This document shows positions 8,820 to 36,466 of a stretch of DNA of 36,945 nt, piece by piece. Numbering within the stretch: the stretch's first letter is position 1; each line of letters starts with the position of its first letter. The position numbers and the translations under genes are program-made. The DNA comes from a virus, in the IMG/VR virus record IMGVR_UViG_3300030085_001194, positions 1 through 36,945 of that record. One strand, written 5' to 3'. The notes under the pieces were generated by a model that was not told the DNA's origin, did no database searches, and saw nothing but the letters and a program-made list of their open reading frames with translations.

Positions 8820-8886
8820 GAGGATATCCGGAAATACCTTTTAGTTATTAAATTTAAATTGACTAGTCAAATTTAGGAGTAAAAAC

Positions 8887-9792: not shown

Positions 9793-9832
9793 TAAATTAT
9801 AAGTCTATAATCATGCAAAGAGGATACAATAA

Positions 9833-10852: not shown

Positions 10853-10855
10853 CTA

Positions 10856-10884
10856 TTGACATTTGTTGATTTTTCCTGTATTAT
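10856..10884 (+). promoter_or_regulatory. Sigma70-like promoter ahead of the glycosyltransferase/radical SAM cluster
   Basis: TTGACA at 10856-10861, a 17-base spacer, then TATTAT at 10879-10884. It overlaps the end of the structural block and lies 24 bases before the 10909 ATG, whose AAGGAG (10896-10901) is a good ribosome binding site. A perfect -35 hexamer, ideal spacing and correct position make this a strong candidate for driving the long gene run downstream. Confidence 0.7.
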
Positions 10885-10908
10885 TAAAAGAATACAAGGA
10901 GTAAAACC

Positions 10909-11286
10909 ATGTCTAACGATATTACACCTTCTCAGGAACAACTTGAAAGGCTAGAAAAAGCATTAGATTTTTCTAATACAATGCAGACTTTTAATCTGAA
11001 TAAGAATAATTTAAAAGTCAAAACACAAAACCTTCTTAACTATAGCACAAATGGTGGTACATTTAATGTTAGTCAATCATTGATTGGCTTTACACATATG
11101 ATTGTTTCATCAGGAAAAAAAGAAGCTATTATTATGGATAAGAATGATATACCAATTAAGATTGAAGATACTAAAAAGTTTTTAGAAGATATTTCTAGTT
11201 TATACTTTGAAGCAATAAATGAATATTACAATGATTATCAGAAACTAAAAAGTTCTAGAAAGATTGAAAAGGTACTAGAGATATAA
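10909..11286 (+). CDS. Unrecognised small acidic-helical phage protein, 125 aa
   Basis: First gene after the sigma70-like promoter, with AAGGAG at 10896-10901. The sequence is charged and mostly helical at both ends (SQEQLERLEKALDF near the start; FLEDISSLYFEAINEYYNDY and KLKSSRKIEKVLEI at residues 88-125). A more beta-like centre (GGTFNVSQSLIGFTHMIVSSG, split here as GGTFNVSQS and LIGFTHMIVSSG) lies at about 48-70. No membrane segment or known motif is visible. Its stop overlaps the next start by one base, so it is co-expressed with the glycosyltransferases. I do not recognise it; a chaperone or adaptor role is possible but unsupported. Confidence 0.6.
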   Translation: MSNDITPSQEQLERLEKALDFSNTMQTFNLNKNNLKVKTQNLLNYSTNGGTFNVSQSLIGFTHMIVSSGKKEAIIMDKNDIPIKIEDTKKFLEDISSLYFEAINEYYNDYQKLKSSRKIEKVLEI

Positions 11287-12167
11287 TGAGCAAAGGAATT
11301 ATAATCTTTGCTACAAACAATGGGTTGATAGACTATATTAAAATTGCATGTGCTAGTGCAGGCTTTATTAGAAAAAACTTATCAAAATTTGATGAAATTT
11401 GTTTAATAACAGATGAAAAATCTATCGATGATAAAGAAACCCATAAACTAGTTGAGAAATATTTCGATAGAATTATATTTCAAGATCCAGGAAGCAAAGA
11501 AGAAAATATTAGATTGTTTAGAGACGGAAGTACAGGTGAATCTGCCTATGCTCCATTTGTAAACAAATCAAGAGGAGGTGTGTACGACATATCTCCTTAT
11601 GATGAGAATTTGGTTATAGATTGTGATTACTTTGTTATGAGTAACACACTTGACCAAGTGTGGGGTAGTGAAAACGACTTCATGATTAATTGTCAATATA
11701 GGGACGTTGCAGGTAGACATGGTGGTAACGTTTCCTATATTGATGATTTTTCAATACCAATGTATTGGGCTACTGTTTTCTATTTTAGAAAATCAGAATA
11801 TACAGAGAATTTGTTTTCATTAATAGAACACATTAAAAACAACTACAAGTATTATTATTTCTTATACAACTGCGGTGGAACATTATATAGAAACGATTTT
11901 GCTTTTTCTATGGCTATACATATAATCAACGGCTGTGTAGACTCTACTGCACCGCAACTTCCAATAGATTACTTAAATAATAGTTTCGATTTAGATGATG
12001 TTTTCAGAGTAAACAATAGCAGAGATATTATTATGTATTGTGCAAAAGCAGATAAAACAACCGAACATCTATTAGCTAGATTTAATAATACAGATATTCA
12101 TATCATGAATAAAAAATCAGTTGAAAGAAATATAGACGAGTTCTTAAATTGTGGGAGTGTAAGATGA
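11286..12167 (+). CDS. GT-A-like glycosyltransferase, paralogue 1, 293 aa
   Basis: The N-terminus is a Rossmann-like strand-turn (KGIIIFATNNGLIDY) followed by a helix and a second strand (DEICLITDE). A DxD-type motif, DCD at residues 112-114 inside NLVIDCDYFVMS, is where GT-A enzymes hold the metal and the sugar nucleotide. A later PMYWATVFYFRKSE segment and the C-terminal HIMNK region fit the acceptor side of GT8-like enzymes. The next gene starts the same way (MSKG.I..A.NN...DY.K.A), so the two are paralogues. The donor and acceptor cannot be read from sequence. The start overlaps the previous stop by one base. An alternative is a degenerate GT-A fold without activity, but the intact DxD argues against that. 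Confidence 0.65.
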   Translation: MSKGIIIFATNNGLIDYIKIACASAGFIRKNLSKFDEICLITDEKSIDDKETHKLVEKYFDRIIFQDPGSKEENIRLFRDGSTGESAYAPFVNKSRGGVYDISPYDENLVIDCDYFVMSNTLDQVWGSENDFMINCQYRDVAGRHGGNVSYIDDFSIPMYWATVFYFRKSEYTENLFSLIEHIKNNYKYYYFLYNCGGTLYRNDFAFSMAIHIINGCVDSTAPQLPIDYLNNSFDLDDVFRVNNSRDIIMYCAKADKTTEHLLARFNNTDIHIMNKKSVERNIDEFLNCGSVR

Positions 12168-13024
12168 GTAAAGGTTATATAGCTATTGCACAAAACAATG
12201 AAGAACACGATTATTTAAAGTTAGCATATGCTATGGCTTTAAGTATAAAAGCATCACAACAAGAAAATAAAATTTGTATTTGCGTAGATGAAAACACTAA
12301 AAGTAAAATCACAGATAAACATCGTGAAGTATTTGACCATATTGTTGACATACCATGGAATGATGATGCAGGAACTGATAAATGGAAAATACATAATAAA
12401 TGGAAATATGCACATATGTCTCCGTTTAAAGAAAGTATTATCTTAGATACAGATATGGTGTTTACTCATTCTGTAGACCATTGGTGGGATTATCTATCGA
12501 AAAAAGATTTATGGGTATGCACAAATGTTAAAACATTTAGAAATGAAAACGTTGTAGATGATTACTACAGAAAAAAGTTTACACAACTAGAATTACCAAA
12601 TGCGTACAGTAACTTCACATACTTTAAAGAGTCTTCAACTACTTACGAATTCTTTCGTATGGTAGAAATTATTATGACACACTGGAACGTATATTATGAT
12701 AAGTTTATGAGAGGCATAGGTCAAAACTGGATGAGTGCAGATTTGGCATTTGCTTTAGCTATAAGATTACTAGACCTTGAAGATGAAGTATGTGAATATA
12801 ATATTAAAGATGTTCCTACATTTGTACATATGAAAAGTTATATTCAGAATATACCACAAACTAAAATATCAAATGATTGGACTCAAAGTTTAACAAGCCA
12901 CTTATCTGATGATTTAAAAGTTAGAGTAGCAAATTATGAACAGTCTCTTCCTTTTCATTATGTAGAAAAGAGTTGGATGACTGATGAAAAAATAAAACAA
13001 TATGAAAGTGCATTGGATATATGA
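12164..13024 (+). CDS. GT-A-like glycosyltransferase, paralogue 2, 286 aa
   Basis: I chose the ATG at 12164 over the one 15 bases earlier. It has GGGAG seven bases upstream and forms an ATGA overlap with the preceding stop. The N-terminal strand (GYIAIAQNN) and helix match paralogue 1. The DxD motif is DTD at residues 95-97 in IILDTDMVFTHSVDHWW, a good metal/sugar-nucleotide site. Residues around 195-215 (GQNWMSADLAFALAIRLL) match the NDFAFSMAIHII segment of the neighbour. The protein is soluble, with no signal peptide. It probably transfers a sugar from a nucleotide sugar to an unknown acceptor, together with the other transferases of the run. Confidence 0.65.
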   Translation: MSKGYIAIAQNNEEHDYLKLAYAMALSIKASQQENKICICVDENTKSKITDKHREVFDHIVDIPWNDDAGTDKWKIHNKWKYAHMSPFKESIILDTDMVFTHSVDHWWDYLSKKDLWVCTNVKTFRNENVVDDYYRKKFTQLELPNAYSNFTYFKESSTTYEFFRMVEIIMTHWNVYYDKFMRGIGQNWMSADLAFALAIRLLDLEDEVCEYNIKDVPTFVHMKSYIQNIPQTKISNDWTQSLTSHLSDDLKVRVANYEQSLPFHYVEKSWMTDEKIKQYESALDI

Positions 13025-13599
13025 ATATAACTAGTATTGAAAAACGAGAGAGTGCAAGAGTAATAAGTTTCGATGATAATGGCAAAATATTAGCCATATC
13101 TTCTACTGAACCAGAAGATGAAAATACATTGTTTGCATACTTTGATGTTTCTGACGTTACTAAATTTATGACTGGTGAAGAAAAATTATCAGATTTTTTA
13201 ATCAGCAAAACTAAGGACGTATTTACATATGAATTAGTTAAAACAAGAGTACATCTTCAAAAACGTTCTAAAGAAAGTCAACTACATAAAATTTCACATA
13301 TTAAAAATTCAGATATTGAAATAACTTATGATGGTAAAGAATTAACGTTTATACCAAGCAATGTACTAATGAAAGCATCAAAAGTTAATAGTTCACAAGA
13401 TGTAACTGTTGGAGGGAAATATAGCCATCCATTTTTTATAACATTTGATAGCAAACCAGAGCATTTAATAGAAACTATACAAATACCTTTTGCTAAATTG
13501 CTTTCAGGTCCAGTTTCTATTAAATTCGAATATAATAAATACAGTATAAGTTTATACACCCAGAAGTTTCTGGAAAAATATTCATTCAGGAGATTATAA
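13021..13599 (+). CDS. Unrecognised protein in the glycosyltransferase/radical SAM run, 192 aa
   Basis: The start forms an ATGA overlap with the gene before, and its stop overlaps the next ATG by one base, so it is expressed as part of the run. The N-terminal half looks like a small alpha/beta domain (ARVISFDDNGKILAI, then DVSDVTKFMTGEEKLSDFL). The C-terminal half is beta-rich, with DIEITYDGKELTFIP, KYSHPFFITFDSKP and PVSIKFEYNKYSISLY at about residues 100-185, which could be a carbohydrate-binding or jelly-roll-like domain; this is only an impression. It has no cysteine cluster, DxD or signal peptide. I do not recognise it. Confidence 0.6.
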   Translation: MNITSIEKRESARVISFDDNGKILAISSTEPEDENTLFAYFDVSDVTKFMTGEEKLSDFLISKTKDVFTYELVKTRVHLQKRSKESQLHKISHIKNSDIEITYDGKELTFIPSNVLMKASKVNSSQDVTVGGKYSHPFFITFDSKPEHLIETIQIPFAKLLSGPVSIKFEYNKYSISLYTQKFLEKYSFRRL

Positions 13600-14573
13600 T
13601 GAAACTTGAAATTGGCGAACTAGATGTATTCTATTTAAGCTATGACGAACCCAATAAAGAAGAACATTGGGCTGATATTATCAGTAAGTTTCCTTTTGCT
13701 AAACGTGTTGACGGAGTGAAAGGATTCGATAATGCACATAAAGAATGTGCAAAACAAAGTGACACCGATAGATTTATTACTATCGATGGAGACAATATTG
13801 TTGAAGAAAACTTCTTTGATATTGAACTAACGTTCCCAGATGGCACAGATTTAGCAAACTCTGTTATATCTTGGAGTGCAAAAAATATGACTAACGGTTT
13901 AGTATACGGTAACGGTGGTATTAAATGCTGGCCAGTGCAACTTGTATTAGACATGAAGACACACGAAAATGCAGAAGATGAAACAAAGAAAGTAGACTTT
14001 TGTTGGGACTTGAACTATATTCAAATGAACAATATATATTCACGTGTATTTAATTCAGGTTCACCTTTTCAAGCCTTTCGTGCAGGTTATCGTGAAGGTG
14101 TCAAGATGTCACTTGATGAAGGCAAACGAGTACCTATCGAAGATTTTAAAAAACGTATTTGGCCCAAGAACTATGAACGATTGATTACATGGTGTAATAT
14201 TGGTGCTGATGTTGAGAATGGTATATGGGCATGTTATGGTGCTAGACTAGGTTGTTATGATGTAAATCTTAACAAAGATTTCATTCTTGAAAACATTTCA
14301 AGTTATGATTGGTTCAAAGAATATTTTGAGAATACTGTTTTTCCTAAATTCGAAGGCGGTGAAGAAAAATGTTCTAGAACTAAACTAGAATGGAACTATG
14401 AAAAGTTATTTGATGAAACTGTAAATCTTGGTGATATCCTTGATGATAAAATTGGTATGGAATTATGCGACCCTACTCCTGAGGTTGCTAGATTCTTCAA
14501 AAGAGTATATGTGAATCCACCAAGAGTTAATAATCCTTTAGCAACAGAAAAACAAACGGGTTGGGACAAGTAA
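13599..14573 (+). CDS. GT2/GT-A-like glycosyltransferase of marine phage type, 324 aa
   Basis: The N-terminal region (LDVFYLSYDEPNKEEHW, then AKRVDGVKGFDNAHKECA, then DRFITIDGDN at residues 58-66) follows the pattern of GT-A transferases: the DGDN motif ends a strand and would bind the metal ion of a nucleotide sugar. Similar proteins opening with LSYDEPN are common in marine T4-like phages. The C-terminal half is long and contains WPKNYERLITWCNIGADVENG, here seen as WPKNYERLITWC and NIGADVENGIWACYGARLG, which may bind the acceptor. AGGAG near 13587 precedes the start. It directly precedes the first radical SAM gene. Activity as a transferase is inferred from the fold-level motifs only. Confidence 0.6.
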   Translation: MKLEIGELDVFYLSYDEPNKEEHWADIISKFPFAKRVDGVKGFDNAHKECAKQSDTDRFITIDGDNIVEENFFDIELTFPDGTDLANSVISWSAKNMTNGLVYGNGGIKCWPVQLVLDMKTHENAEDETKKVDFCWDLNYIQMNNIYSRVFNSGSPFQAFRAGYREGVKMSLDEGKRVPIEDFKKRIWPKNYERLITWCNIGADVENGIWACYGARLGCYDVNLNKDFILENISSYDWFKEYFENTVFPKFEGGEEKCSRTKLEWNYEKLFDETVNLGDILDDKIGMELCDPTPEVARFFKRVYVNPPRVNNPLATEKQTGWDK

Positions 14574-14578
14574 TTTAA

Positions 14579-16147
14579 ATGTCTAACTATGATGATGATG
14601 CAATAGCAACAAGAGATAAACTTAATGCGTTATCTCCATCAATGTGTATGGCAAAGTGGTTGCAAGTTAGTTTGCATTTGCCACAAGGTCGTACACACAG
14701 TTGCTATCACCCTCCAACGCATCCAATTCCGTTAGACGAACTTAAAAAAGATCCTAATGCTTTGCATAATACTACGTTCAAATTACAAGAACGTAAACAA
14801 ATGAAATGTGGCGACCGTCCTGAAGGTTGCCAATATTGCTGGAACGTTGAAGACGCTCCTGATGCCCCAAAGGGCGGTAGATTGAGTGATAGACATTATC
14901 GCTCAAGTGAATGGTGGGTAAAAGATGCCTGGGATGAAGTCGTTAACAATCCTTGGGACCACAACATCACTCCCAGATATGTTGAGGTGAACTTTAATCA
15001 AGCATGTAATTTTAAATGCAGTTATTGTTCGCCCCACTTATCTACAGCATGGGAAGACGATGTAAAGAAACACGGCGGTTTCCGTTTCAGCAATGGTACA
15101 GGTCACAATGATATAGATTACTTACGTAAGACTGGACTTATGCCATTAGAAGTTTCACGTAAAGACAATCCTTATATCGAAGCATTTTGGAAATGGTTTC
15201 CAATGATATACAAAGACTTGAAAGTTTTTCGTATGACAGGTGGTGAACCATTAATGGATAGCAATACATTTAAAGTGTTTGATTATGTAAATGAAAATCC
15301 AAATCCTTTTTTAGATTTGAGTATTACATCAAACATGTGTCCTCCACAAGACAAGTTATTTGATAAATTTATTGATAAGATAAAAGCATGTGAAGAAATA
15401 CGAGTATGGGAAGATCCAAAAAGATTTAATCCTGATAGTGGTAATTACTGGTATGTTGCTCCTGCATATAAACATTTTAGTTTATATGTTAGTGTTGATG
15501 GTGTAGGTAAACAAGCAGAATATATGCGTGACGGATTAGACTTTGATAAGATGTATGATAATTGTCGTAGAGTATTGCGTGAAACTGATGGTACAGAAAT
15601 TTCTTTTATTAATACGTTTCAACTATTGAGTATACCAAATCTACGTGGTTTTTTACAAATGATATTAGACTTGCGTGAAGAATTTGGATATGAAAATCAA
15701 GAAGATAAAATTATACAACCACCGGATCATAATGGGTTCAAACACCCACCTTTTGTTAGAAAGAAAAGACAAAGAATTTGGTTTGATATTCCTTATCTAC
15801 GATATCCTGATTGGATGACAATACAATTAGCAGACCATGAGTTATTAGATACAATACAAAAGAATATTGACTTTATGAAAGAGAACGTATTAGAGAACGA
15901 TTTATATGGTAGAAAATATACAGGATTCAAGAATTACGAAGTTTTAAAACTTGAACGAGATTTAGCATGGGCCAAACAAGGGCTAAATATGAAAGATGAA
16001 GAATTAAGTACACATCTTATACGTTTCTATGAATATTTTACACAATATGATAAAAGACGTAATTTAAATTTTCTAGAAACGTTTCCAGAAATGAAAGATT
16101 TTTGGAACGAAGCAAAGGAAGAAAAAGAGGCTAGATATGGGTCGTAA
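14579..16147 (+). CDS. Radical SAM protein 1 with N-terminal twitch-like Cys domain, 522 aa
   Basis: The radical SAM motif CNFKCSYC (C143, C147, C150) would bind the [4Fe-4S] cluster that cleaves S-adenosylmethionine. RMTGGEPLM places the GGEP motif that binds the AdoMet amino group at 221-224, and SVDG follows later. Ahead of this domain is a cysteine-rich region: C23 (MCMAKW), C42 (SCYHPP) and C84/C87 (GCQYCW). This matches a four-cysteine twitch domain for an auxiliary Fe-S cluster, placed N-terminally. The SCYHPP and W-rich phrases are shared with the next gene only, making them a subgroup. The start at 14579 has only a weak ribosome binding site. Substrate unknown; relatives modify peptides, cofactors or sugars. 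Confidence 0.85.
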   Translation: MSNYDDDAIATRDKLNALSPSMCMAKWLQVSLHLPQGRTHSCYHPPTHPIPLDELKKDPNALHNTTFKLQERKQMKCGDRPEGCQYCWNVEDAPDAPKGGRLSDRHYRSSEWWVKDAWDEVVNNPWDHNITPRYVEVNFNQACNFKCSYCSPHLSTAWEDDVKKHGGFRFSNGTGHNDIDYLRKTGLMPLEVSRKDNPYIEAFWKWFPMIYKDLKVFRMTGGEPLMDSNTFKVFDYVNENPNPFLDLSITSNMCPPQDKLFDKFIDKIKACEEIRVWEDPKRFNPDSGNYWYVAPAYKHFSLYVSVDGVGKQAEYMRDGLDFDKMYDNCRRVLRETDGTEISFINTFQLLSIPNLRGFLQMILDLREEFGYENQEDKIIQPPDHNGFKHPPFVRKKRQRIWFDIPYLRYPDWMTIQLADHELLDTIQKNIDFMKENVLENDLYGRKYTGFKNYEVLKLERDLAWAKQGLNMKDEELSTHLIRFYEYFTQYDKRRNLNFLETFPEMKDFWNEAKEEKEARYGS

Positions 16148-17693
16148 ACACTGGGAAGGCGAAACACTACACCAATATAAAAAACGTATGATAGATACGG
16201 TTAGTGATTCTTATTGTGCGGCTAAATGGTATAATGCTACTATCTGGTTAGGACATGGTCAAACTGCAAGTTGTCACCACCCACCAGGACATTGGATACC
16301 ACTAGAAGAATTAAAAGATAATCCTACTGCAATTCATAATACAAAGCATAAAAAACTTATGCGTAAGTATATGCAAGAAGGTAAACGTCCAGCTGAATGT
16401 GAATACTGTTGGAAAGTTGAAGATATGGGCAAAGACCACATATCAGATAGAGTTTTTAAAACAGAGATTTTTAAAGATGAAGATATTCATAAGAGTGCAG
16501 AAATGCCATGGGACGATAATGTAAATTTACGTACATTAGAAATTTCATTTGACCGTGCTTGTAATCTCAAATGTTCATACTGTAACCCAGCATTCTCAAC
16601 AGCATGGGTTAAAGATATTAATACATATGGTGCCTATCAAAATATTCAGTCAGATGGACGTGGTCACTTTGTTGATACTGCTCCATGGGCGGCACCTGTA
16701 TCTAAGCAAGAAGAAGACAACCCATATATACAAGCGTTTCATAAATGGTGGGAAAGTGACTTAGCAGATTGTTTAGAAGAAATTAGAATTACTGGCGGTG
16801 AGCCTATTATGCATAGAGGTACTTGGAGGCTATTTGATTGGTTTGAACAAAATCCAGATAGAGGTAGAAATATGCGTTTTGCAATTAATTCAAATTTATC
16901 TCCTGAAAAGCCAAAAGTATTAGACAAACTTATTGAAAAGTCTTGGTTTGTTCCTAACTTTGAAATATACACATCAATGGAAGCAACAAAAGAACAAGCA
17001 GAATATATACGTGATGGATTGAATTATGATTTATGGAAATCAAATATTCATCGTGTATTGAAAGAATCAAATGTAAAAAAGTTACATATGATGATGACTA
17101 TTAACTCATTATGTTTAGTTACAATTACAAACTTTATGGATGAGATGTTAGACCTGAGAGAAGAATATGGACAACGTGCGCCTACAATGACTTTAAATAT
17201 TTTGCGTTTTCCTTCTTTTCAAAGTGCCGCAATATTACCAGAACATATAAAAACTTTTTACAAAGAGAAACTAGAAAGATGGTATCTATCGGATAGACCA
17301 CAAAGAAAACTAACAGAGGGTGAAAAGGCAAGTGTACAAAGATTAATAGATTATCTTGACATTGTAAAAACTCCACATAAGAATACTGCGGAGACTCCAA
17401 AACTATATAATGATTTTAAAGCATTCTTTTCACAATTTGATGTTCGTAGAGGTCACAATTTTAGAGAAGTATTTAAGGGTCCAATTGCAGATTGGTATGA
17501 TACTATAGATGCAAAAACTCCTACACCAGAACAAATCAAATCAAAAACATTTGTTCTTGAAGTAGGTAATAGAGCAGGAGACCCTGCAACTACAGAATCA
17601 TATGAAGGTGGTGATGATGCACACGAAAAAGCAGGTGTCGGTGGTTGGGATACTGATAAAGATGCTTTGGGTGGTGTAATCGTCAATGAATAA
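16137..17693 (+). CDS. Radical SAM protein 2 with N-terminal twitch-like Cys domain, 518 aa
   Basis: Closest sister of radical SAM protein 1. CNLKCSYC (C142, C146, C149) is the cluster motif and RITGGEPIM the AdoMet motif (GGEP 220-223). The N-terminal auxiliary-cluster candidates are C27 (YCAAKW), C46 (SCHHPP), C88 and C91 (CEYCW). Two differences stand out. The usual SxDG-type phrase after the central strands is replaced by TSMEA, and the last 50 or so residues form a Gly/Asp/Glu-rich tail (phrases such as GGDDAHEKAGVGGWDTDKD) not seen in the other six. The start overlaps the previous gene by 11 bases. The tail could be a flexible linker or a partner-binding segment; its role is unknown. 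Confidence 0.85.
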   Translation: MGRKHWEGETLHQYKKRMIDTVSDSYCAAKWYNATIWLGHGQTASCHHPPGHWIPLEELKDNPTAIHNTKHKKLMRKYMQEGKRPAECEYCWKVEDMGKDHISDRVFKTEIFKDEDIHKSAEMPWDDNVNLRTLEISFDRACNLKCSYCNPAFSTAWVKDINTYGAYQNIQSDGRGHFVDTAPWAAPVSKQEEDNPYIQAFHKWWESDLADCLEEIRITGGEPIMHRGTWRLFDWFEQNPDRGRNMRFAINSNLSPEKPKVLDKLIEKSWFVPNFEIYTSMEATKEQAEYIRDGLNYDLWKSNIHRVLKESNVKKLHMMMTINSLCLVTITNFMDEMLDLREEYGQRAPTMTLNILRFPSFQSAAILPEHIKTFYKEKLERWYLSDRPQRKLTEGEKASVQRLIDYLDIVKTPHKNTAETPKLYNDFKAFFSQFDVRRGHNFREVFKGPIADWYDTIDAKTPTPEQIKSKTFVLEVGNRAGDPATTESYEGGDDAHEKAGVGGWDTDKDALGGVIVNE

Positions 17694-18813
17694 CTTTTGT
17701 CCATTAGTAACTAATAATCTTGAACTTACTACAAAGGGTGAAGCAACTCCTTGTTGTATTAGTTCTAAAAGATTTACTATTAATGGAGAAAAAGCAAATG
17801 CACATTATCACACTATAACAGAAATACTTAATGACAGTGATAGAAACTACTGGATTAAAAACTTTGATGAGTATTACGAAACAGATTGTAAGCAATGTTA
17901 CGAAGTTGAAAAAACAGGTGGCGAAAGTAAAAGACAAAGAGAAATAAAACTATGGACAAAGAATTTCAGATATAAAAAGAATTCTTTACAAGCCATAGAT
18001 TTGAAAATGGGGAATACTTGTAATCTTGCTTGTGCAATATGTGGTTCTCATTCTAGTTCTAAATGGGGAAGTATAGATAAATCTTTTGGCATAGAATATA
18101 AGCCATATAATAAATGGCAAGACGAAGATAGATTTTGGGAAGATTTAAATAATCATGTAGAAGATTTGAATCGTGTTGAACTTGCCGGTGGTGAACCATT
18201 CATGATTAAGAAACAAAAGATTTTATTACAGTTCCTTGTTGATAAAGATATCGCAAAAAATATTGAAATAACTTGGTTCACAAATTGCACGATGTGGCCA
18301 AAAGAACTAATAGATTATTTTAAATATTTTAAATTAGTAAGAATTATGTTATCGATTGATAACACAAAAGAACAGTTTGAGTTTCAAAGATATCCTGCTA
18401 AGTGGAATGAAACATATGAAACGTTTAAAAAATTTATGCATCTCAGAGATGAAGGCTTATGTCAAGTAGAGATATCACATAGCGTAAGTGCTTTAAATAT
18501 ATTTCATTTACCTGAGTTTCATCAATGGTGCAATGAACATAATGTAAAAATTTTTAATAATCTTGTTATGCATCCTTTTTGTGTTAAAGATTTACCAGAA
18601 GAATTTAAAATAGTAGTGAAAGAAAAGTTTGATAAACATGATATAGAAGATATACAAATTAATCCAGTTATTGGTAAAGATAACTGGTTAACTAAATTTA
18701 TGGATATGCCAGGAGATGTTAATACATTTAAAACAAGACTTGAATATCCAAAACAAACAAGACCAGGGTTATTTGAGAAAGCATTTCCTGAGTTGATAGG
18801 ATACGTATGTTAG
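17686..18813 (+). CDS. Radical SAM protein 3 with N-terminal twitch-like Cys domain, 375 aa
   Basis: CNLACAIC (C112, C116, C119) is the radical SAM cluster motif, followed by the SHSSSKW phrase shared by several members here. GGEP is at 168-171 and SIDN occurs later. The N-terminal module holds C5 (NFCPL), C23/C24 (TPCC) and C68/C71 (CKQC), the spacing expected for a four-cysteine twitch-like auxiliary cluster site. At 375 residues it is shorter than proteins 1 and 2 and groups with proteins 6 and 7 by length and motif wording. It overlaps the previous gene by eight bases. Enzyme class is secure; the substrate is not deducible. Confidence 0.85.
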   Translation: MNNFCPLVTNNLELTTKGEATPCCISSKRFTINGEKANAHYHTITEILNDSDRNYWIKNFDEYYETDCKQCYEVEKTGGESKRQREIKLWTKNFRYKKNSLQAIDLKMGNTCNLACAICGSHSSSKWGSIDKSFGIEYKPYNKWQDEDRFWEDLNNHVEDLNRVELAGGEPFMIKKQKILLQFLVDKDIAKNIEITWFTNCTMWPKELIDYFKYFKLVRIMLSIDNTKEQFEFQRYPAKWNETYETFKKFMHLRDEGLCQVEISHSVSALNIFHLPEFHQWCNEHNVKIFNNLVMHPFCVKDLPEEFKIVVKEKFDKHDIEDIQINPVIGKDNWLTKFMDMPGDVNTFKTRLEYPKQTRPGLFEKAFPELIGYVC

Positions 18814-20057: not shown

Positions 20058-21448
20058 GTAAGAGAATAATACCTATCTGGAAGTCTGACGGAAGTTGTGC
20101 AGAAGAAAGTAAGAATAAAACTTTTTGCATGGCTCCATGGTCTCATACCTATATTTCTCCTCAAGGTGAACGTAGACTATGTTGTGCATCACGTGAAGAA
20201 CATTCTTTTCAAAAACAATACATAGATGCATCAAACGATGAACGTTATGGTAAAGTAAAAGAAAGTAAAACAGATGCAGATGATTTTAATCCTGTATCAT
20301 TAGAAGAACACTGGAACTCTCAATACATGAGAGACATTAGAAAGAAACTAATGGCTGGAGAACGTATTCCACAGTGTGATGTTTGTAATGATGACATTTT
20401 AAGTTTGTCATCTTATCGTAAATGGTTTACTGGTGTGTTATTCAGAGATAAGATACAAGAAGCATTTGATAATACAGATGATGATGGTCGTACTGATATG
20501 CCTACAATTTCTTTTGATTATCGATATTCAAATTTATGTAATTTTAAATGTCGTATGTGTGGAGAACAATTATCAAGTTCTTGGGAAGCAGAAAAGAAAA
20601 AGCATGATATGTGGTCAGTTGAAAATCAACCTTTCATGCAACCAACTGTAAAACAAAAGATGGTTAAGTTTCAACGTACTGTAGTTGAGCCTGAATTTAA
20701 GAAAGCAATTTCAGATGGTATCGTAGAAGAAATATATTGGGTAGGCGGTGAACCACTTATGTACGATATACATTGGTGGGCATTAAAAGAAATGGTCGCT
20801 AATGGTTCAGCAAAGAATTGTCACTTAAGATATAACTCTAATTTATCTCGTACATCATTTAAAGGCATGGAGTTGTTTGATTACTTGCCTCAGTTTAAAG
20901 ATTGGTTGATGTGTGCGAGTATTGATGGCACAGGAGATATTGTAGAGTTTATTCGTAAAGGTATTGTATGGGAAGAATGGTTAGCTAACTTTAAGAAAGG
21001 ACTAGCCGCACCAGGTGGTAAAGACAAAATGTTATTTGACTTGACTATTACTGGACCAGGTATGTTTAGTATCAAAGATTTATTTGATTTGAGTTTAGAG
21101 TTAGATGTAAGAATAGAAACAAAGATTATGTTCGCTTTTCATCCTGATATTGTTATGAGTCCATTTGCATGGCCTAGACATATCTTGGATAGAAAAATTG
21201 ATGAACTACTTGCGTATATGGAACCTCGTTCTACTGGCAAACAAATGACACTTATCAATACCTTGAAGGGAATGAAAGACAGACCAACATTTGCAGAACA
21301 GTGGCCAGATACTCATGAACAACAGTTTAAAAATGGAAAAGGATTTCAGGATAGACTTGACCAGATTAGACAAGAACAGTATAGACTAGAAGATATCTAT
21401 AAAAGAGATACAGAATTATATGAATGGTGGAAAAGATATGAAACATAA
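20054..21448 (+). CDS. Radical SAM protein 5 with N-terminal twitch-like Cys domain, 464 aa
   Basis: Cluster motif CNFKCRMC (C162, C166, C169), WVGGEPLM (GGEP 231-234) and SIDGTGDIVEFIRKG for the later strand and cap. The auxiliary site is FCMAPW (C25), LCC (C43/C44) and CDVC (C108, C111). The spacing between CC and CxxC is about 64 residues, longer than in proteins 3, 4, 6 and 7 (about 43-51), which suggests an insertion in the twitch-like module. The start forms an ATGA overlap with the preceding stop. The following gene is the only non-radical-SAM gene inside the array. Confidence 0.85.
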   Translation: MSKRIIPIWKSDGSCAEESKNKTFCMAPWSHTYISPQGERRLCCASREEHSFQKQYIDASNDERYGKVKESKTDADDFNPVSLEEHWNSQYMRDIRKKLMAGERIPQCDVCNDDILSLSSYRKWFTGVLFRDKIQEAFDNTDDDGRTDMPTISFDYRYSNLCNFKCRMCGEQLSSSWEAEKKKHDMWSVENQPFMQPTVKQKMVKFQRTVVEPEFKKAISDGIVEEIYWVGGEPLMYDIHWWALKEMVANGSAKNCHLRYNSNLSRTSFKGMELFDYLPQFKDWLMCASIDGTGDIVEFIRKGIVWEEWLANFKKGLAAPGGKDKMLFDLTITGPGMFSIKDLFDLSLELDVRIETKIMFAFHPDIVMSPFAWPRHILDRKIDELLAYMEPRSTGKQMTLINTLKGMKDRPTFAEQWPDTHEQQFKNGKGFQDRLDQIRQEQYRLEDIYKRDTELYEWWKRYET

Positions 21449-22469
21449 AATTGAAATTATATACTCAAGAACTCCTCCAGAAACTTTCTTTCATGACAGT
21501 TCTGGAACAAACATTTTAGAATTACGTACAGACAGAAATAAAGAATACAGTTCAGATTCTACATATACATTAACATTTGAAATGCCGGATACAACTGTTT
21601 CTAAAAAGTTTGTTGATGTATGGAATTCATATAATGATGATGGAAAATACATATTGCATTTTAATACATATGCAACTTTATCTAGAGAAGAAATTTTACA
21701 AAGACAAGAATTGATGAATGAAGTTATTACTCAAATCAATAATTATAAGTATGATGATTGGTCAATACCAGATGAACTTGTTTTAGAACTTAATGGCGAA
21801 GATGCACAAGTTGATAAACTTAATGCATTGCATCGGTTTTTTGAAGATTGTAGTTATTATATGATGAAAGAAAAACAACAGCCACTTACTAAAGAGCGTA
21901 CTAATTATTTAAATAATATTTTAGTTTTACTAGAAAAAGTAAACTATCTAGTACACAGAATGGAAGGTGGTGCAGGAGTCAGTCTTAAAGATTATACAGT
22001 TTTTAGACATGCAAATGCAAAATTAAGAGATACAGTAAAACTTACTAAACGAGATTATAAATCATTTACTCCTTGTATTGCTCCAACATCTAATGGTGTT
22101 TTGTATCTAGACTATTGTACTGTTGGGAAAGATTTAGAAGCATGTTGGAGAACAAAAGATTTAGAATTAATAAAAGCTAAAGAAGTTAAGCAACAAGAAT
22201 ATATTAATACTGCTTTTAATTTTACTTTTAATACTGAACCAGTTCCTACTAGTGAAACACACAAACATGAAAAATTAAGAGTTAATAATTTAAAAAATCA
22301 ATGGTGTGAAGAAAATGATGTTGGTGATTACTATAACTATTGGGAGCCAGAATATAATGTAGGGAGACTTATACTAGGTGAGTGTGTTGATGAGGATATA
22401 ACCGATGTTATTTCATATAGAGACATGCTAAACCATTATCCATATGTTATAGATATAATTGTAAAGTGA
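21438..22469 (+). CDS. Unrecognised protein embedded in the radical SAM array, 343 aa
   Basis: I prefer the ATG at 21438 over that at 21420 because GGTGGA lies about ten bases upstream of it; it overlaps the previous gene by 11 bases. Residues up to about 60 look like a beta-rich domain (YTLTFEMPDTTVSKKFVDVW). The centre is helical. Around residue 215 there is a striking phrase, ITPS-like CIAPTSNGVLYLDYCTVG followed by KDLEACW, with three cysteines, then KEVKQQEYINTAFNF. It has no CxxxCxxC, DxD or signal peptide. It could be a partner or substrate-binding component for the flanking enzymes, but that rests on position alone. Confidence 0.6.
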   Translation: MKHKIEIIYSRTPPETFFHDSSGTNILELRTDRNKEYSSDSTYTLTFEMPDTTVSKKFVDVWNSYNDDGKYILHFNTYATLSREEILQRQELMNEVITQINNYKYDDWSIPDELVLELNGEDAQVDKLNALHRFFEDCSYYMMKEKQQPLTKERTNYLNNILVLLEKVNYLVHRMEGGAGVSLKDYTVFRHANAKLRDTVKLTKRDYKSFTPCIAPTSNGVLYLDYCTVGKDLEACWRTKDLELIKAKEVKQQEYINTAFNFTFNTEPVPTSETHKHEKLRVNNLKNQWCEENDVGDYYNYWEPEYNVGRLILGECVDEDITDVISYRDMLNHYPYVIDIIVK

Positions 22470-22476
22470 ATAAAAT

Positions 22477-23670
22477 ATGAGTGATACTTTTTGTCCATTA
22501 CTATTTCAACATTTAGCGACACATCCACATGGCGGAGTGACGCATTGTTGCATTGCGGATCATAGAAATGCATTAAGTAGTTCACGTGACGGTGATAGAT
22601 TTTACAATCTTAATCGTGACACAGTACATGATACAATGAATTCTGAATCGTTTCGTAAAGCAAGACTAGAAGTATTAGACGGCAAAAAGCCACGTGCATG
22701 TATGCGTTGCTATTCAGAAGAATCAAAAGGCATGATGTCTAAAAGATTAGAAGAAATAAAGAACTACCCTGAATACACTGTAGAAGTCGCTAGGGACGCC
22801 ACTGAGAGCGATGGAACAATGAAAGACGTTCAGCTAGAGTTTGTTGAATTAAGATTAGGTAATGTTTGCAATGTTGCATGTCGTACTTGTAACCCAGCTA
22901 GTTCAAGTAAATGGCGAAATGATTACGATGCTTTACAAAAGAAAACTACATTCACGTTAACAAGCTATGATACGATGGAAGGCTTTAGATGGCCTGAGCG
23001 TGAAGGGTTCTGGGAAGACTTATTGAAACATTGTGATAATGTAAAAACATTTTATATCAATGGTGGTGAACCTACTTTAATTAAACAACATTTTGCTTTC
23101 CTAGAAAGACTAGTTAGTTTAGGTAAAACAGATATCAAACTTTGGTATAATATTAATATGACAAATATGAACGATAAAGTTATAGATTTGTGGCGCAAGT
23201 TTGATAATGTAAAAGTAAGTTGCAGTATTGACGATATAGGTGATAGAAATTATTACATAAGATATCCTAGCGATTGGGATACTGTAATTAAAAACTTTAA
23301 AAGATTAAAAGAAGAAAACTTTGAATTAGATGTAACACAAACTGTTTCATGGATGAACTACTCAACATTAGGAGATTTTTATAATTTCTTTAACAGAGAA
23401 ATGGGAGTCCATGTACATCACAATTATGTTTACGACCCAGATATTCTTTCACCAGCAGTACTACCAAAAGAAATGAGAGAACGTATACACAAAAAGTTTT
23501 CTAATATATTTCCAAGTTGGAAGTTAACTGAGTTTGAAAAAATGTTTAGTGGACCTGATAGAAAAGATAAATGGCAAAAGGCTATTGAGTATACTAGAAA
23601 CCTAGATGAAATAAGAAAACAAAATATAGTAGATTATTTGCCAGAGTTCGAGGTATATTTTAATGAATAA
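22477..23670 (+). CDS. Radical SAM protein 6 with N-terminal twitch-like Cys domain, 397 aa
   Basis: Cluster motif CNVACRTC (C131, C135, C138) followed by NPASSSKW; NGGEPTL at 195-201 is the AdoMet motif; SIDD follows. The auxiliary-cluster candidates are FCPL (C6), HCC (C24/C25) and CMRCY (C75, C78). It groups with proteins 3 and 7 (similar length, GN.CN..C, SSSKW). The stop overlaps the next start by eight bases. It begins eight bases after the unrecognised gene, with a weak ribosome binding site, so translational coupling is likely. Substrate unknown. Confidence 0.85.
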   Translation: MSDTFCPLLFQHLATHPHGGVTHCCIADHRNALSSSRDGDRFYNLNRDTVHDTMNSESFRKARLEVLDGKKPRACMRCYSEESKGMMSKRLEEIKNYPEYTVEVARDATESDGTMKDVQLEFVELRLGNVCNVACRTCNPASSSKWRNDYDALQKKTTFTLTSYDTMEGFRWPEREGFWEDLLKHCDNVKTFYINGGEPTLIKQHFAFLERLVSLGKTDIKLWYNINMTNMNDKVIDLWRKFDNVKVSCSIDDIGDRNYYIRYPSDWDTVIKNFKRLKEENFELDVTQTVSWMNYSTLGDFYNFFNREMGVHVHHNYVYDPDILSPAVLPKEMRERIHKKFSNIFPSWKLTEFEKMFSGPDRKDKWQKAIEYTRNLDEIRKQNIVDYLPEFEVYFNE

Positions 23671-24820
23671 GTTTTGTGTATTACCTTTTGTACATATAGA
23701 AGTAGACACTGACGGAAAGATAAGACCTTGTTGTGTTTACGATGGACACTTTACAAAAGAAGATGGTAGTCTATACAATGCTAGAACAGATTCTTTACAT
23801 GATATAAGAAACTCTACATGGATTAAATCTATGCAACAAAAGATGCTTGATGATAAGCCAGATAGAGGTTGTAGAAAATGTTATTCAGAAGAAATGAATA
23901 ATAATGTAAGTAGACGTATAAGAGAGAACAAACGTTTCGAAGCAGAGATTGATAACATACATAACGGTGTGTTTAATTTAAAAATACTGGATATAAAACC
24001 AGGCAATACTTGTAATCTTAAATGTCGTATTTGCAATGAATACAGTAGTAGTAAATGGCTTGATGACAAATATAAATTATTCAATACTACCAAATTGTTT
24101 GACGAAACACAACTTGCTAACTTTAAATGGTATAACAATGAAAACTTTTGGAAAGAATTAGATGACCTAATAGAACACGTAGAGTTTATAGAAATCTTTG
24201 GTGGCGAACCAATGTTAATCAAACAACAGTTTAAGTTTTTAGAAAAGCTAGTAGAACGTGGCTTATCAAAAAACATTACTGTAAGCTATGCAACTAACGG
24301 TACTATATTTCCAGAGAATGCAGTTAAAAATATTTGGCCATACTTTAAGCGTATTATAATTATGTTAAGTGCAGATGGTATAAAGAAAGGATTTGAGTAC
24401 TCTCGTTATCCAGCAGAATGGTCAGTATATGAAAACACTCTACAACGATATGTAGACGCAGGTATTACACCTACTATAAGTTATGGTGTAAGTGTATATA
24501 GTATTTTTAATTTGATAGAAAGTATTGAGTATTACTATTCTAAAAATATTCCTGTATGGTTAAACATAGTTTATGATGCCAATACAAGCATAGCCGCTTT
24601 ACCAAACGAAATCAAAAAAGATATCACAGATAAAATTAAAAATGAATTTAAACCTGAGTGGAATTCTATATTGCAAGAAAAGACAATAGACGGCATTGTT
24701 AATTATATGAACAATACAAAAATGGATTTTGAACCAGTAAGATTAGATATTAACAACGTAGATGAAATACGAGAACAAAGTTTTAATAACGTATTTAAAG
24801 AACTAAAGGATTATTTGTAA
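23663..24820 (+). CDS. Radical SAM protein 7 with N-terminal twitch-like Cys domain, 385 aa
   Basis: Cluster motif CNLKCRIC (C117, C121, C124) followed by NEYSSSKW; FGGEPMLI holds GGEP at 180-183; SADG follows. The N-terminal module has FCVLPF (C5), RPCC (C23/C24) and CRKCY (C70, C73), with the typical G.(I/L)RPCC phrase of twitch/SPASM domains and LYNARTDSLHDIRNS between. It is the last of the seven. Its stop overlaps the ATG of a glycosyltransferase by one base, tying the radical SAM block to sugar-transfer genes on both sides. Substrate unknown. Confidence 0.85.
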   Translation: MNKFCVLPFVHIEVDTDGKIRPCCVYDGHFTKEDGSLYNARTDSLHDIRNSTWIKSMQQKMLDDKPDRGCRKCYSEEMNNNVSRRIRENKRFEAEIDNIHNGVFNLKILDIKPGNTCNLKCRICNEYSSSKWLDDKYKLFNTTKLFDETQLANFKWYNNENFWKELDDLIEHVEFIEIFGGEPMLIKQQFKFLEKLVERGLSKNITVSYATNGTIFPENAVKNIWPYFKRIIIMLSADGIKKGFEYSRYPAEWSVYENTLQRYVDAGITPTISYGVSVYSIFNLIESIEYYYSKNIPVWLNIVYDANTSIAALPNEIKKDITDKIKNEFKPEWNSILQEKTIDGIVNYMNNTKMDFEPVRLDINNVDEIREQSFNNVFKELKDYL

Positions 24821-25716
24821 TGACAACAACAATGCTGGTCAGCACATTGTATAAAGGACCTCATTATGAATTAATAGGACCATATAAAAAAGATATAATT
24901 GCAAATCATAAAAAGTTTGCAGAGTATAATGATATGGAATATCGTTTGTATGGCGAAGAACTTACTTATAGATTTAAAAATATAAAACCATATCATTTTA
25001 CTAAATGGGATATTCCTGTAAGCCCACTGAACATCTTACCAGGTATAGGTAAACTATATGCAATTCTTTCTGCAATGGAAGACTACCCACGGATAAATCG
25101 TTATATATTTGTAGACTTTGATAGTATTTTTATAAACAAAGTAAAAATAAAAGATGAAAGTAATTACATTAATGAAATAAACTATGAAAATGCTGAGGCT
25201 ACATTTAGTAGACAACAATCTCCTTTCTTATATGATATGTCATTCTTTTATTATTATTGTATGTATAAAGGCATAACATATAAAGACTTACAAAAGTATA
25301 GTCCTAAGTACCGATATAATTCTGGCTTATTCATAGTAAGTAAAGAGTTTATAACCATTAATAGTGTCAATGAGTACGTAAAGTTCTGCTTAGATATACA
25401 TGAAAACAAAACGCAATATTCTAAATCTAGTTCTCATAAGAAAGACGGAATGATATTACCTTACGAAAAAAGTGATTTAATAGATAAAGACAAACACGCA
25501 ATATTTCATCCAAGTGATGAAGTATGGTTTCAGTATAGAAGGACGCAACTGCTCAAAGATAAAGACAACGATATACATTTTCCTATGTTAAATGATACGT
25601 GGAATGTTATTGGAAGCGAAAAAGATAATGTCTTAGATAATATCAAAACTTCTAACCATATTCACTGTATAAATAAATCTGTTATACCTTATTGTTTGGA
25701 GAATAGCAATGTCTAA
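24820..25716 (+). CDS. GT-A-like glycosyltransferase, 298 aa
   Basis: An N-terminal strand (TMLVSTLYKGPHYE) is followed by a helix, then NRYIFVDFDSIFIN with the DxD-type motif DFD at residues 99-101. KWDIPVSPLNILPGIGKLYAI (seen as KWDIPVSPL and GIGKLYAILSA) just before it resembles the donor-binding helix of GT8/GT34-type enzymes. A second acceptor-side phrase, YNSGLFIVSKEF near 170, has the N-S-G seen in many GT8-like enzymes. It is soluble, with no signal peptide. The start sits directly on the stop of radical SAM protein 7 (TAATG). It is not an obvious paralogue of the two transferases at the head of the run. Sugar and acceptor are unknown. Confidence 0.65.
   Translation: MTTTMLVSTLYKGPHYELIGPYKKDIIANHKKFAEYNDMEYRLYGEELTYRFKNIKPYHFTKWDIPVSPLNILPGIGKLYAILSAMEDYPRINRYIFVDFDSIFINKVKIKDESNYINEINYENAEATFSRQQSPFLYDMSFFYYYCMYKGITYKDLQKYSPKYRYNSGLFIVSKEFITINSVNEYVKFCLDIHENKTQYSKSSSHKKDGMILPYEKSDLIDKDKHAIFHPSDEVWFQYRRTQLLKDKDNDIHFPMLNDTWNVIGSEKDNVLDNIKTSNHIHCINKSVIPYCLENSNV
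25678..25685 (+). promoter_or_regulatory. Possible internal late promoter TATAAATA
   Basis: A perfect TATAAATA lies inside the end of the glycosyltransferase gene, 23 bases before the ATG of the SGNH gene. Transcription would start near 25691, leaving room for the GGAG ribosome binding site. The same bases encode Ile-Asn in an AT-rich gene, so chance is a real alternative. Confidence 0.3.
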
Positions 25717-26605
25717 ATGTTGGATATTTGGAGATAGCTTTCAAGACAGTAACTTTCCAAGAGGACAAAAAGAAAGTTGGTGTGATATTCTATTTTCAAA
25801 AAAAGGATATGAAGTAAAAAACTTTTCAAAAGCAGGTCTTTCAACTGAGTCTATTATTTTGTCATGCATTGATATGATACCAAAGTTTAAAAGCAATGAC
25901 CTAGTTTTAGTATTCTTAAGTGCAGAAAAAAGATTTATGAGAGTTGAAGGGTCAGGTGATATACACTGTGAGTCTGGTTTTAAAAAATATATTGATACAC
26001 CAAGAAGACATACAGACATATGGGAACTGTATGCAAAAAACAATCGTGACCAGACAATAATTGATTATGCAGATAAATTAAGTTCTCCTTTAACTGATAA
26101 ACTAAAACATAGTGTTTGGAACAACTACATAGGTATATTATTAAGAAATAAAAAAAATGTAAATTTTAAAATAATACATGGACATTATGAACCTGTAGAA
26201 GTAAAAAGTAATTATGTAAAAGAGTATATGCATTATTGGGAACTTAGAACTTTCTTACCAAATGTAACTGCTTACTTTGATATGAGAAGTGCTTTAAAAC
26301 TTAAAGCAGGCTATTGTCTTATTAATGACTTCTTTCATTGTCAAATAGAACATTTGTCTAAAACTGTAGGTGAAGATTTCTTCATTGAATTAGAAAAAAT
26401 ATGCAATCATTGTAGTGAAGCAAGAAACTCCAAATCCAAAAGATTGAAATCTAGCTACGCAGATATTATGCAATCAGAATTCTTAAAACCTTTACGTAAA
26501 TTATATGGAAAAGAGAATGTTATATTCTATGACACTTGGCATTTAAATAAACATGGGCAAGCCATATATGCAGAATATGCCAAAGATTATGAGTGGATTA
26601 AATAA
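25709..26605 (+). CDS. SGNH/GDSL-like hydrolase or acyltransferase, 298 aa
   Basis: The N-terminus CWIFGDSFQDSNF carries the GDS block with candidate nucleophile Ser10. The block after it, NFSKAGLSTESIILSC, corresponds to the oxyanion-hole glycine region. The C-terminus has YDTWHLNKHGQAIYAEYA, in which Asp275 and His278 match the DxxH catalytic pair of SGNH enzymes. These enzymes remove or transfer acyl groups, often on polysaccharides. A GGAG ribosome binding site precedes the start, which overlaps the glycosyltransferase by eight bases. A role in acetylating or deacetylating a glycan made by the nearby transferases is plausible. Catalytic residues are all present, so this is the most convincing active SGNH enzyme in the window. 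Confidence 0.7.
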   Translation: MSKCWIFGDSFQDSNFPRGQKESWCDILFSKKGYEVKNFSKAGLSTESIILSCIDMIPKFKSNDLVLVFLSAEKRFMRVEGSGDIHCESGFKKYIDTPRRHTDIWELYAKNNRDQTIIDYADKLSSPLTDKLKHSVWNNYIGILLRNKKNVNFKIIHGHYEPVEVKSNYVKEYMHYWELRTFLPNVTAYFDMRSALKLKAGYCLINDFFHCQIEHLSKTVGEDFFIELEKICNHCSEARNSKSKRLKSSYADIMQSEFLKPLRKLYGKENVIFYDTWHLNKHGQAIYAEYAKDYEWIK

Positions 26606-27270
26606 TGAATAAACTTTTTATAATAGCATGTTCACACGGAATGGGTTGTGAAATAGAAGGACCAGGTATAGGTCACTTTACTAAAACTAATTTAGAAAAC
26701 TGTTATGGATCTATTGTTGCTAGTAAATTAAATTTAGAACCTATTAATCTTTCTTGGCCAGGAGGAAGTAACGATAGAATACACAGAGTAATTCATAATC
26801 TACTGAATGATGGTTTTGAGTTTTTCGAAAATACATACAAAGCAGAACCAGAAGATAAATTTTTAATACAATGGACTGGCCCAGATAGAATTGAATTGAA
26901 AACAAAAGATGGTTATCAAAACTTTTCAGTTGGCATGGGATATGAAGGCGTTAATCCAGATGGCACAAGATGGTGTATTAGCAAAGACAATAAAAAGTTT
27001 TATGAACATTATATAAATTACATAGCAGATCCTGAATATACAAACATATTAAAACTAAAAAATATTCTTAGTGCAAAATATATGTTAGATAAATCAGGTC
27101 ATACATATTGGATGACAGAAAGTGATAGAAGTGTATATAACGAAGGATTTATAATTAAAACTCCTTATTGGGAATACTTAAGTAAAAAAGGATTCAAACG
27201 TACTCCTGCAGAACACTTTGGTGCAGATGCACATGAAGAATGGGCTAAACTTATTTTAGAGAGTATATAA
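26605..27270 (+). CDS. SGNH-like protein, last gene of the long run, 221 aa
   Basis: The opening KLFIIACSHGMGCEI resembles an SGNH block I in which GDS is replaced by ACS, with Ser10 as candidate nucleophile. NLSWPGGSNDRIHRVIHNLL fits the glycine/asparagine blocks, and EHFGADAHEEWAKLI at the C-terminus resembles the catalytic D..H block (Asp208, His210). It is shorter than its neighbour and quite divergent, so enzyme activity is less certain. The start overlaps the previous stop by one base (TAATG), and a strong hairpin terminator begins three bases after its stop. It may act with the upstream SGNH enzyme on the same substrate. Confidence 0.5.
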   Translation: MNKLFIIACSHGMGCEIEGPGIGHFTKTNLENCYGSIVASKLNLEPINLSWPGGSNDRIHRVIHNLLNDGFEFFENTYKAEPEDKFLIQWTGPDRIELKTKDGYQNFSVGMGYEGVNPDGTRWCISKDNKKFYEHYINYIADPEYTNILKLKNILSAKYMLDKSGHTYWMTESDRSVYNEGFIIKTPYWEYLSKKGFKRTPAEHFGADAHEEWAKLILESI

Positions 27271-27272
27271 AA

Positions 27273-27299
27273 AAAGAGCACCATTTAATGATGCTCTTT
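27273..27299. terminator. Bidirectional hairpin terminator between converging genes
   Basis: AAAGAGCA pairs with TGCTCTTT, then one C/A mismatch, then CAT pairs with ATG around a TTA loop. On the plus strand a T-rich run follows (ATCTTTTTAT, to 27310). On the minus strand the complement of the A run at 27270-27275 gives Ts. It lies between the 27270 stop and the 27321 stop of the converging gene, so it can end transcription from both sides. Confidence 0.8.
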
Positions 27300-27320
27300 A
27301 ATCTTTTTATATTGTTAGAT

Positions 27321-28874: not shown

Positions 28875-28908
28875 TATAACCTCTCTTGTTCGTTTCATTT
28901 ATGTATAT

Positions 28909-36464: not shown

Positions 36465-36466
36465 AA

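Follow-up and report, generated by a model that had tools for sequence, protein, structure and literature searches.

Radical S-adenosylmethionine (SAM) enzymes and glycosyltransferases (GTs) are already known to occur together in T4-like phages. In pelagimyophages, radical SAM cassettes and GT8 genes lie in a host-recognition cluster for which modification of the O-chain was proposed (PMC7029224), and the T4-like marine phage TARA_ERS488813_N000010 carries 12 radical SAM genes and an Fe-S A-type carrier (PMC5332604). Here we examine a run of 16 genes that combines both enzyme types in the IMG/VR virus record IMGVR_UViG_3300030085_001194, positions 1 to 36,945 (the whole stretch of 36,945 nucleotides (nt) is referred to as the window). 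The run lies directly behind the gene for a putative tail adhesin, termed TAIL4, and was compared with loci from other phages and from cellular genomes. The phage group is regarded as T4-like on the strength of a gp23-type major capsid protein in several of the related contigs.

The locus shares with the pelagimyophage cluster a T4-like marine setting, transferases (GT8 for the most part) encoded next to tail fibre genes, and a variable insertion made up of radical SAM cassettes. That cluster, however, is a hypervariable island (PMC7029224), whereas the order of the core is fixed here, the radical SAM set is colinear and the promoter is conserved. TARA_ERS488813_N000010 and the present phages both have numerous radical SAM genes together with genes for Fe-S support; the paper on the former proposed no pathway or gene order, and up to 19 radical SAM genes of the N_Twi subfamily were found on single contigs here, with 17 on the closest large relative. 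Among contigs of relatives, 9 of 24 encode an Fe-S A-type carrier and 4 of 24 a SAM synthetase. Glycosylation of virion proteins by phage-encoded transferases has been proposed or demonstrated in mycobacteriophages (Freeman et al. 2023, cited in PMC12619734) and in XacN1 (PMC5852040), with no radical SAM enzyme reported there. Moraphages resemble the present phages by description, being large, aquatic and glycosyltransferase-bearing: four putative glycosyltransferases belong to the orthologous groups that they share most widely (PMC12619734). Radical SAM enzymes are not mentioned in the accessible text of that paper. The architecture described below is apparently new: within the open-licence literature neither the fixed core nor the colinear set nor the promoter was found described, which is not proof of absence.

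Layout of the run and its linkage to TAIL4

All 16 open reading frames were present, co-directional on one strand from 10909 to 27270. Most neighbours overlap, by up to 29 nt, and no gap between them is longer than 7 nt. The original prediction, made from the sequence of the window, had described a tightly coupled run of sixteen genes behind virion structural genes, and this held: TAIL4, c54 and a giant protein of PHROG 10938 lie upstream. The run's own promoter and terminator were likewise recovered, and the three genes listed as unknowns (g1, g4 and g11) stay without an assigned function. The features of the run and of TAIL4 are as follows.

8887..9792, plus strand: TAIL4 family copy 1; clusters with copy 2 (alignment)
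9833..10852, plus strand: TAIL4 family copy 2, putative tail adhesin; tblastn match to PA5oct gp360, E = 1e-4
10856..10884, plus strand: sigma70-type promoter TTGACA-17-TATTAT, near-consensus (11/12)
10909..11286, plus strand: g1, small conserved protein, first gene of the module
11286..12167, plus strand: g2, GT8-like glycosyltransferase, motif DCD; family profile against glycogenin, E = 1.2e-5
12164..13024, plus strand: g3, GT8-like glycosyltransferase, motif DTD; same family profile as g2; start at ATG 12164 more likely than at TTG 12149
13021..13599, plus strand: g4, fast-evolving; slot taken by the related families c32 and c53 in other phages
13599..14573, plus strand: g5 (GT5), unannotated transferase family with a GT-A-like predicted fold, motif DGDN
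14579..16147, plus strand: g6, radical SAM N_Twi subfamily A; NF033640 E = 4e-88
16137..17693, plus strand: g7, radical SAM N_Twi subfamily B; NF033640 E = 6e-92
17686..18813, plus strand: g8, radical SAM N_Twi subfamily C (accessory); NF033640 E = 1e-70
18807..20057, plus strand: g9, radical SAM N_Twi subfamily D (accessory); NF033640 E = 3e-115
20054..21448, plus strand: g10, radical SAM N_Twi subfamily E; NF033640 E = 1e-99
21420..22469, plus strand: g11, mostly found a short distance upstream of subfamily F
22477..23670, plus strand: g12, radical SAM N_Twi subfamily F; NF033640 E = 9e-110
23663..24820, plus strand: g13, radical SAM N_Twi subfamily G (accessory); NF033640 E = 1e-92
24820..25716, plus strand: g14, putative transferase, unconfirmed, from a DFD motif alone
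25709..26605, plus strand: g15, SGNH-like; PF00657 E = 0.003 (under cut-off), profile link to c15 E = 1.6e-7
26605..27270, plus strand: g16, SGNH-like; profile link to c15 E = 3e-12
27273..27299, no strand assigned: intrinsic-terminator hairpin, 12-bp stem, separating the run from a convergent FG-GAP gene

The GT core has the order g1-GT-GT-x-GT5, in which x is a g4-like gene and the two transferases belong to the g2/g3 family (GTa). Loci were collected with g9 as query (65 loci), with GT5 as query (80 of at least 596 matching viral stretches) and from genome contigs (21 loci). TAIL4, g1 and GTa were found upstream of GT5 in 95 of the 99 loci with enough upstream sequence. To avoid the bias of a GT5 query, the search was also anchored on TAIL4, using the best 80 of at least 566 matches, so that distant TAIL4 relatives are under-sampled. 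Here g1, GTa and GT5 followed in every locus with at least 5 kb downstream (61/61). Near-identical contigs are included in these counts; clustering on GT5 reduces the 96 core loci to 83 groups at 95% identity and to 46 at 80%, and the 80 TAIL4 loci form 46 clusters at 80% identity. Co-occurrence with particular tail proteins, which the original prediction had put forward as a check for the run, is far beyond chance for the core. In phage virion-glycosylation systems a transferase adjoins a structural gene, and this arrangement was present in all 61 loci.

The linkage did not extend to the whole run. Radical SAM genes of the N_Twi type lay within 7 kb downstream in 44 of the 61 TAIL4-anchored loci, and in most core-bearing loci the cassette came directly after GT5. 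Some core loci, g1 included, have no radical SAM gene nearby, and the SGNH tail differs between loci. The radical SAM cassette and the SGNH tail vary independently of the core, and because core and cassette separate, the predicted single 16-gene pathway was abandoned. The run is a composite of a GT core, a radical SAM cassette and a variable SGNH tail. The transferases and radical SAM genes are under purifying selection, with ratios of non-synonymous to synonymous substitution (dN/dS) of 0.03-0.15 where dS was unsaturated (window against relative L002); g4, g11, g14 and g15 gave 0.15-0.28 in the same comparison, with g4 at 0.28.

The promoter site ahead of g1 is the only 11-of-12 sigma70 site within 8000-27900. 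A site matching at least 11/12 consensus positions occurred upstream of g1 in 38 of 88 distinct regions, against 0.3 expected from mononucleotide shuffles. The corresponding counts elsewhere were 0/97 upstream regions for TAIL4, 0/56 for c33 and 1/50 for c54. The conserved sigma70 promoter before g1 thus marks the run as a transcription unit of its own. The late-like motif ATAAATA was found within 60 nt before c54 in 30 of 50 loci (3.1 expected) and before g1 in 28 of 88 regions (3.1 expected), and was absent upstream of GTa. Composite promoters, in which ATAAATA lies inside the sigma70 spacer upstream of g1, were seen in L136, L140, L141, L146, L149 and L158; in the window itself, only the sigma70 site was seen ahead of g1. 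The T4-type TATAAATA motif was not enriched over the whole window (4 found, 7.8 expected). Judged from these motifs, the run is probably transcribed ahead of the late genes or together with them and, in some relatives, also late.

Enzymes encoded by the run

All seven proteins predicted to be radical SAM enzymes (g6-g10, g12 and g13) scored above the cut-off of NF033640 (N_Twi_rSAM), an NCBIfam subfamily of radical SAM proteins with an N-terminal twitch domain, with full-length scores of 238-385 bits against a cut-off of 170 and E-values of 1e-70 to 1e-115. Their catalysis is thus predicted from sequence. In a genome-wide scan, only five of the seven passed the generic Pfam Radical_SAM cut-off. 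The CX3CX2C radical SAM motif was kept in 526/526 homologues and the N-terminal twitch cysteines in 513/526, and both were seen by eye in all seven proteins of the window. No N_Twi protein exceeded the cut-off in 14 well-known control genomes.

A tree of 155 N_Twi proteins resolved old subfamilies that are orthologous across phages. Lineage-specific tandem duplication of the radical SAM genes was considered and rejected, as the subfamilies are old and orthologous in different phages. With subfamily profiles, the order A-B-E-F was kept in 67/67 loci having at least two of these four, counting same-strand genes and the first occurrence of each; the loci are not independent, and all four were present in 30 of them. 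C, D and G are accessory subfamilies. In g13 (23663-24820), residues 119-192 gave phmmer matches to the cyanobacterial phycobilisome proteins CpcN (E 1.5e-8) and CpcJ (1.4e-3).

The original prediction of four GT-A-like transferases was backed in part. For g2 and g3, the family profile matched glycogenin (GT8) at an E-value of about 1e-5, while neither protein singly matched a Pfam GT family; we class them as GT8-like only. Glycogenin is a GT8 enzyme that glucosylates tyrosine. The third, g5, gave a very weak PHROG match and no Pfam family match. Its AlphaFold2 model, built from a 75-sequence alignment, reached a predicted local distance difference test (pLDDT) score of 93. Foldseek against the PDB returned mostly GT-A/nucleotidyltransferase folds as best matches, with probabilities up to 1.0 and TM-scores of only 0.2-0.4. 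HddC, ppGalNAc-T2, WrtF, SunS and GlyE were listed, all at low TM-score; of these ppGalNAc-T2, SunS and GlyE are protein or peptide glycosyltransferases. The two aspartates of the DGDN motif were invariant in the 75 sequences. On this modelled fold, g5 may represent a GT-A-like transferase family. PDB profile searches with g1 and GT5 returned nothing significant, and GT5 had no match among annotated phage records. The fourth, g14, found no Pfam, PHROG or PDB support and no profile link to g2/g3 or g5.

Of the remaining genes, g4 is related to families c32 and c53 (profile comparison E = 1e-5 to 5e-8), and g11 had no profile relative among the tested families of the run. Two SGNH-like proteins had been predicted, and that label was kept in its weaker form. 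The Pfam GDSL cut-off was missed by g15 (18.3 bits against 23.6) and g16 had no match, but both link by profile to c15, a member of which passes the cut-off (PF00657); they are therefore called SGNH-like only. Relatives of the run also carry a carbamoyltransferase, a nucleotide-sugar epimerase and a UDP-sugar dehydrogenase. In freshwater phages (L014, L016, L020, L024, L046 and L060), GT5 carries an N-terminal fusion to tandem repeats (...YEHVWMLD...) and comes after a large protein containing a TAIL4 domain.

Candidate substrates and alternative explanations

From gene identities, linkage, order and promoter conservation, we infer a possible substrate, chemistry and timing. The reading that we favour, at a probability of roughly 0.45, is that a tail-linked cassette of T4-like aquatic phages glycosylates the TAIL4 adhesin in the cytosol and that the product is radically tailored. 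The two GT8-like enzymes and GT5 would build a glycan on TAIL4 ahead of tail assembly, the sigma70 promoter having them made earlier than the late tail proteins. The radical SAM set, with its A-B-E-F core and C, D and G as accessories, would form a separable tailoring line for the glycan or for the protein that bears it, and acyl groups would be added or removed by the SGNH proteins. The outcome would be a receptor-binding surface of unusual chemistry. That the colinear radical SAM line rewrites the glycan or glycosylated adhesin by radical chemistry is a doubtful part of this proposal; the cassette may work on that same glycan or yield a product of its own.

Three things favour the tail adhesin as the target: the GT core is inseparable from one virion protein, the enzymes are soluble, and several structural neighbours of g5 are protein-glycosylating. 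The Gly/Tyr repeats of TAIL4 relatives, the match of the GTa profile to a tyrosine-glucosylating enzyme and the mass-spectrometry note on the PA5oct homologue gp360 also speak for this reading. A strongly hydrophobic segment was found in only 16 of 640 genes within 9 kb after GT5, and in no member of the GTa and GT5 families. Phage serotype-conversion (gtr-type) clusters need a membrane flippase and a membrane glucosyltransferase; the run contains no flippase, polymerase, ligase or other membrane component. Among bacteria, adhesins paired with dedicated cytosolic transferases include HMW1/HMW1C, AIDA-I/AAH and the serine-rich repeat proteins. In HMW1/HMW1C-type pairs, soluble transferases are encoded after the adhesin gene on which they act, an arrangement that the core may share by analogy only.

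Several observations weigh against glycosylation of TAIL4. No acceptor site was identified on the protein, and its structure model was poor (pLDDT 65), making a fold search from that model meaningless. PA5oct-type phages have TAIL4 with no core or cassette behind it. Conversely, G010 (124 kb) has an A-B-E-F cassette with no TAIL4 match and only a weak GT5 match elsewhere, the cassette adjoining IMP-dehydrogenase-like, DNA-ligase and PhoH-like genes, and GT5 and radical SAM genes occur on Bdellovibrionia chromosomes without tail genes. A separate sigma70 promoter would be equally expected of an early host-takeover pathway, and co-inheritance in one phage lineage could yield the linkage without a substrate relationship.

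The enzymes might instead build or alter a glycan of the infected cell (lipopolysaccharide core or similar), for example blocking superinfection or re-adsorption of progeny. We place such envelope remodelling second, as possible if on balance improbable. It stays alive because of the sigma70 promoter, which is missing from the tail genes, the exported lyase nearby, and the tail-free cellular relatives, in which homologues adjoin GT2 and PMT-like genes on Bdellovibrionia chromosomes. The nucleotide-sugar, carbamoyl and SGNH accessory enzymes would suit it, as would the apparent signal peptides and sigma70-like sites of the downstream polysaccharide lyase and FG-GAP protein, and it is the published view for pelagimyophage GT8 genes (PMC7029224). 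The lack of any membrane component argues against it, however, and strict linkage to one tail protein exceeds what a host-surface gene would need. The original prediction had proposed a glycan or surface-modification role and held that no sequence evidence selects between virion and cell surface. The role fits the GT8-like, GT-A-like and SGNH proteins and the sugar enzymes of relatives, though not as a single pathway. Evidence now bears on the choice: the TAIL4 linkage points to the virion, the sigma70 promoter and Bdellovibrionia homologues keep the cell surface in play, and none of it is decisive.

That the run joins two unrelated neighbours, a tail-linked GT core and a mobile radical SAM cassette with a separate product (a small molecule, modified peptide, nucleotide or cofactor), we regard as unlikely. 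The TAIL4-free cassette of G010 and the core loci without radical SAM genes are consistent with it, as are G006 (239 kb), with radical SAM genes but neither TAIL4 nor GT5, and relative G002, which has further radical SAM clusters and halogenase, AMP-ligase, ketosynthase, acyl-carrier and metK genes. Yet the cassette sits directly behind GT5 in most core-bearing loci, and GT5 paralogues again lie beside radical SAM genes in G002 cluster 2 and in Bdellovibrionia. A cassette for ribosomally synthesised and post-translationally modified peptides, with radical SAM maturases acting on a short precursor encoded in the run, is largely refuted and retains almost no weight. Radical SAM enzymes that modify peptides typically have a SPASM/twitch architecture, but gaps between genes of at most 7 nt leave no room for a precursor gene, for which reason this reading was rejected; g1, the one small gene, is conserved and also turns up in loci that lack radical SAM genes. 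Base hypermodification of DNA with glycosylation appears very improbable. Glycosyltransferases that hypermodify phage DNA are known (PMC12619734), and one relative has thyA-like and DHFR-like genes on the strand opposite its second radical SAM cluster. The run, however, is linked to tail rather than replication genes, and no nucleotide- or DNA-acting enzyme was seen among its genes, an observation made in passing with no dedicated test.

Should tailoring of the TAIL4 adhesin prove true, radical rewriting would serve to diversify receptor-binding surfaces, which was not described in any virus that we found. Related contigs devote long stretches to the cassette, most of the encoded proteins lacking useful annotation, and the N_Twi subfamilies represent a large untouched enzyme set. 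Given the fixed gene order, the conserved promoter and the partner in the tail, a loose auxiliary metabolic gene label gives way to a pathway open to testing, for which a candidate substrate can be named.

Neighbouring genes and cassettes outside the tail locus

Four further genes flank the run and the TAIL4 copies.

1..8094, plus strand: giant virion structural protein, C-terminal part (5′ end cut by the contig); PHROG 10938, E = 1e-141
8148..8819, plus strand: c54, tail-region protein, PHROG 11259 (function unknown), E = 6.5e-37; ATAAATA late-promoter-like motif before the gene
27321-28898, minus strand: FG-GAP protein, convergent with the run; apparent signal peptide by eye
35508-36500, minus strand: polysaccharide lyase; apparent signal peptide by eye

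Homologues of the giant protein were found by tblastn in the jumbo phages PA5oct, SCTP-2 and PBECO4. The PA5oct region holds two wedge genes, the giant gp355 and, farther downstream, the TAIL4 homologue gp360; the record carries electrospray ionisation tandem mass spectrometry (ESI-MS/MS) notes on gp355 and gp360. TAIL4 relatives of L003, L121, L124, L126, L142, L144 and others contain Gly/Tyr repeats in several forms (GYGYGY, GGYGGY, SGYSGY and NGYNGY), which recall Gly-rich adhesin loops. Downstream of the run, sigma70-like sites were seen upstream of the FG-GAP and polysaccharide lyase genes (28936 and 35501). The TATAAATA motifs at 28941-28948 and 31407-31414 stand a few bases ahead of the ATG of two SGNH-like genes (28954 and 31420), which suggests late, almost leaderless transcripts for these genes.

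Cassettes in freshwater phages keep the A-B-E-F order, flanked on one side by an amidase, an IMP-dehydrogenase-like gene and c12, and on the other by carbamoyltransferase, DNA-ligase-like and PhoH-like genes; these functions were read by eye, carbamoyltransferase excepted. Among the genomes behind the loci, to which the search was limited, five cellular genomes gave 11 to 33 N_Twi matches each, four being titled Bdellovibrionia or Bdellovibrionales and one "bacterium". Many of the N_Twi genes of this type (L184-L191, L077, L083 and L085) lie in islands with relatives of GT5, c8, c9, c10 and c12, and one island also holds GT2 and PMT-like genes. In L085, GT5 lies within an ordinary chromosomal neighbourhood. 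Because GT5 and N_Twi enzymes occur on these chromosomes, they are not tied to virions in general. No literature on radical SAM/SPASM proteins of Bdellovibrio was found.

Two further contigs carry genes of note. The contig of L002, the closest large relative, encodes a SAM synthetase, a Trp-halogenase-family protein, an AMP-ligase, a ketosynthase and an acyl carrier protein (L170-L175), together with a second radical SAM/GT5/c12 cluster, a biosynthetic content unusual for a phage. In L066 (Vibrio phage K566, record 151697-176455), the radical SAM genes lie a few kilobases from a gene annotated as PagP (lipid A acylation).

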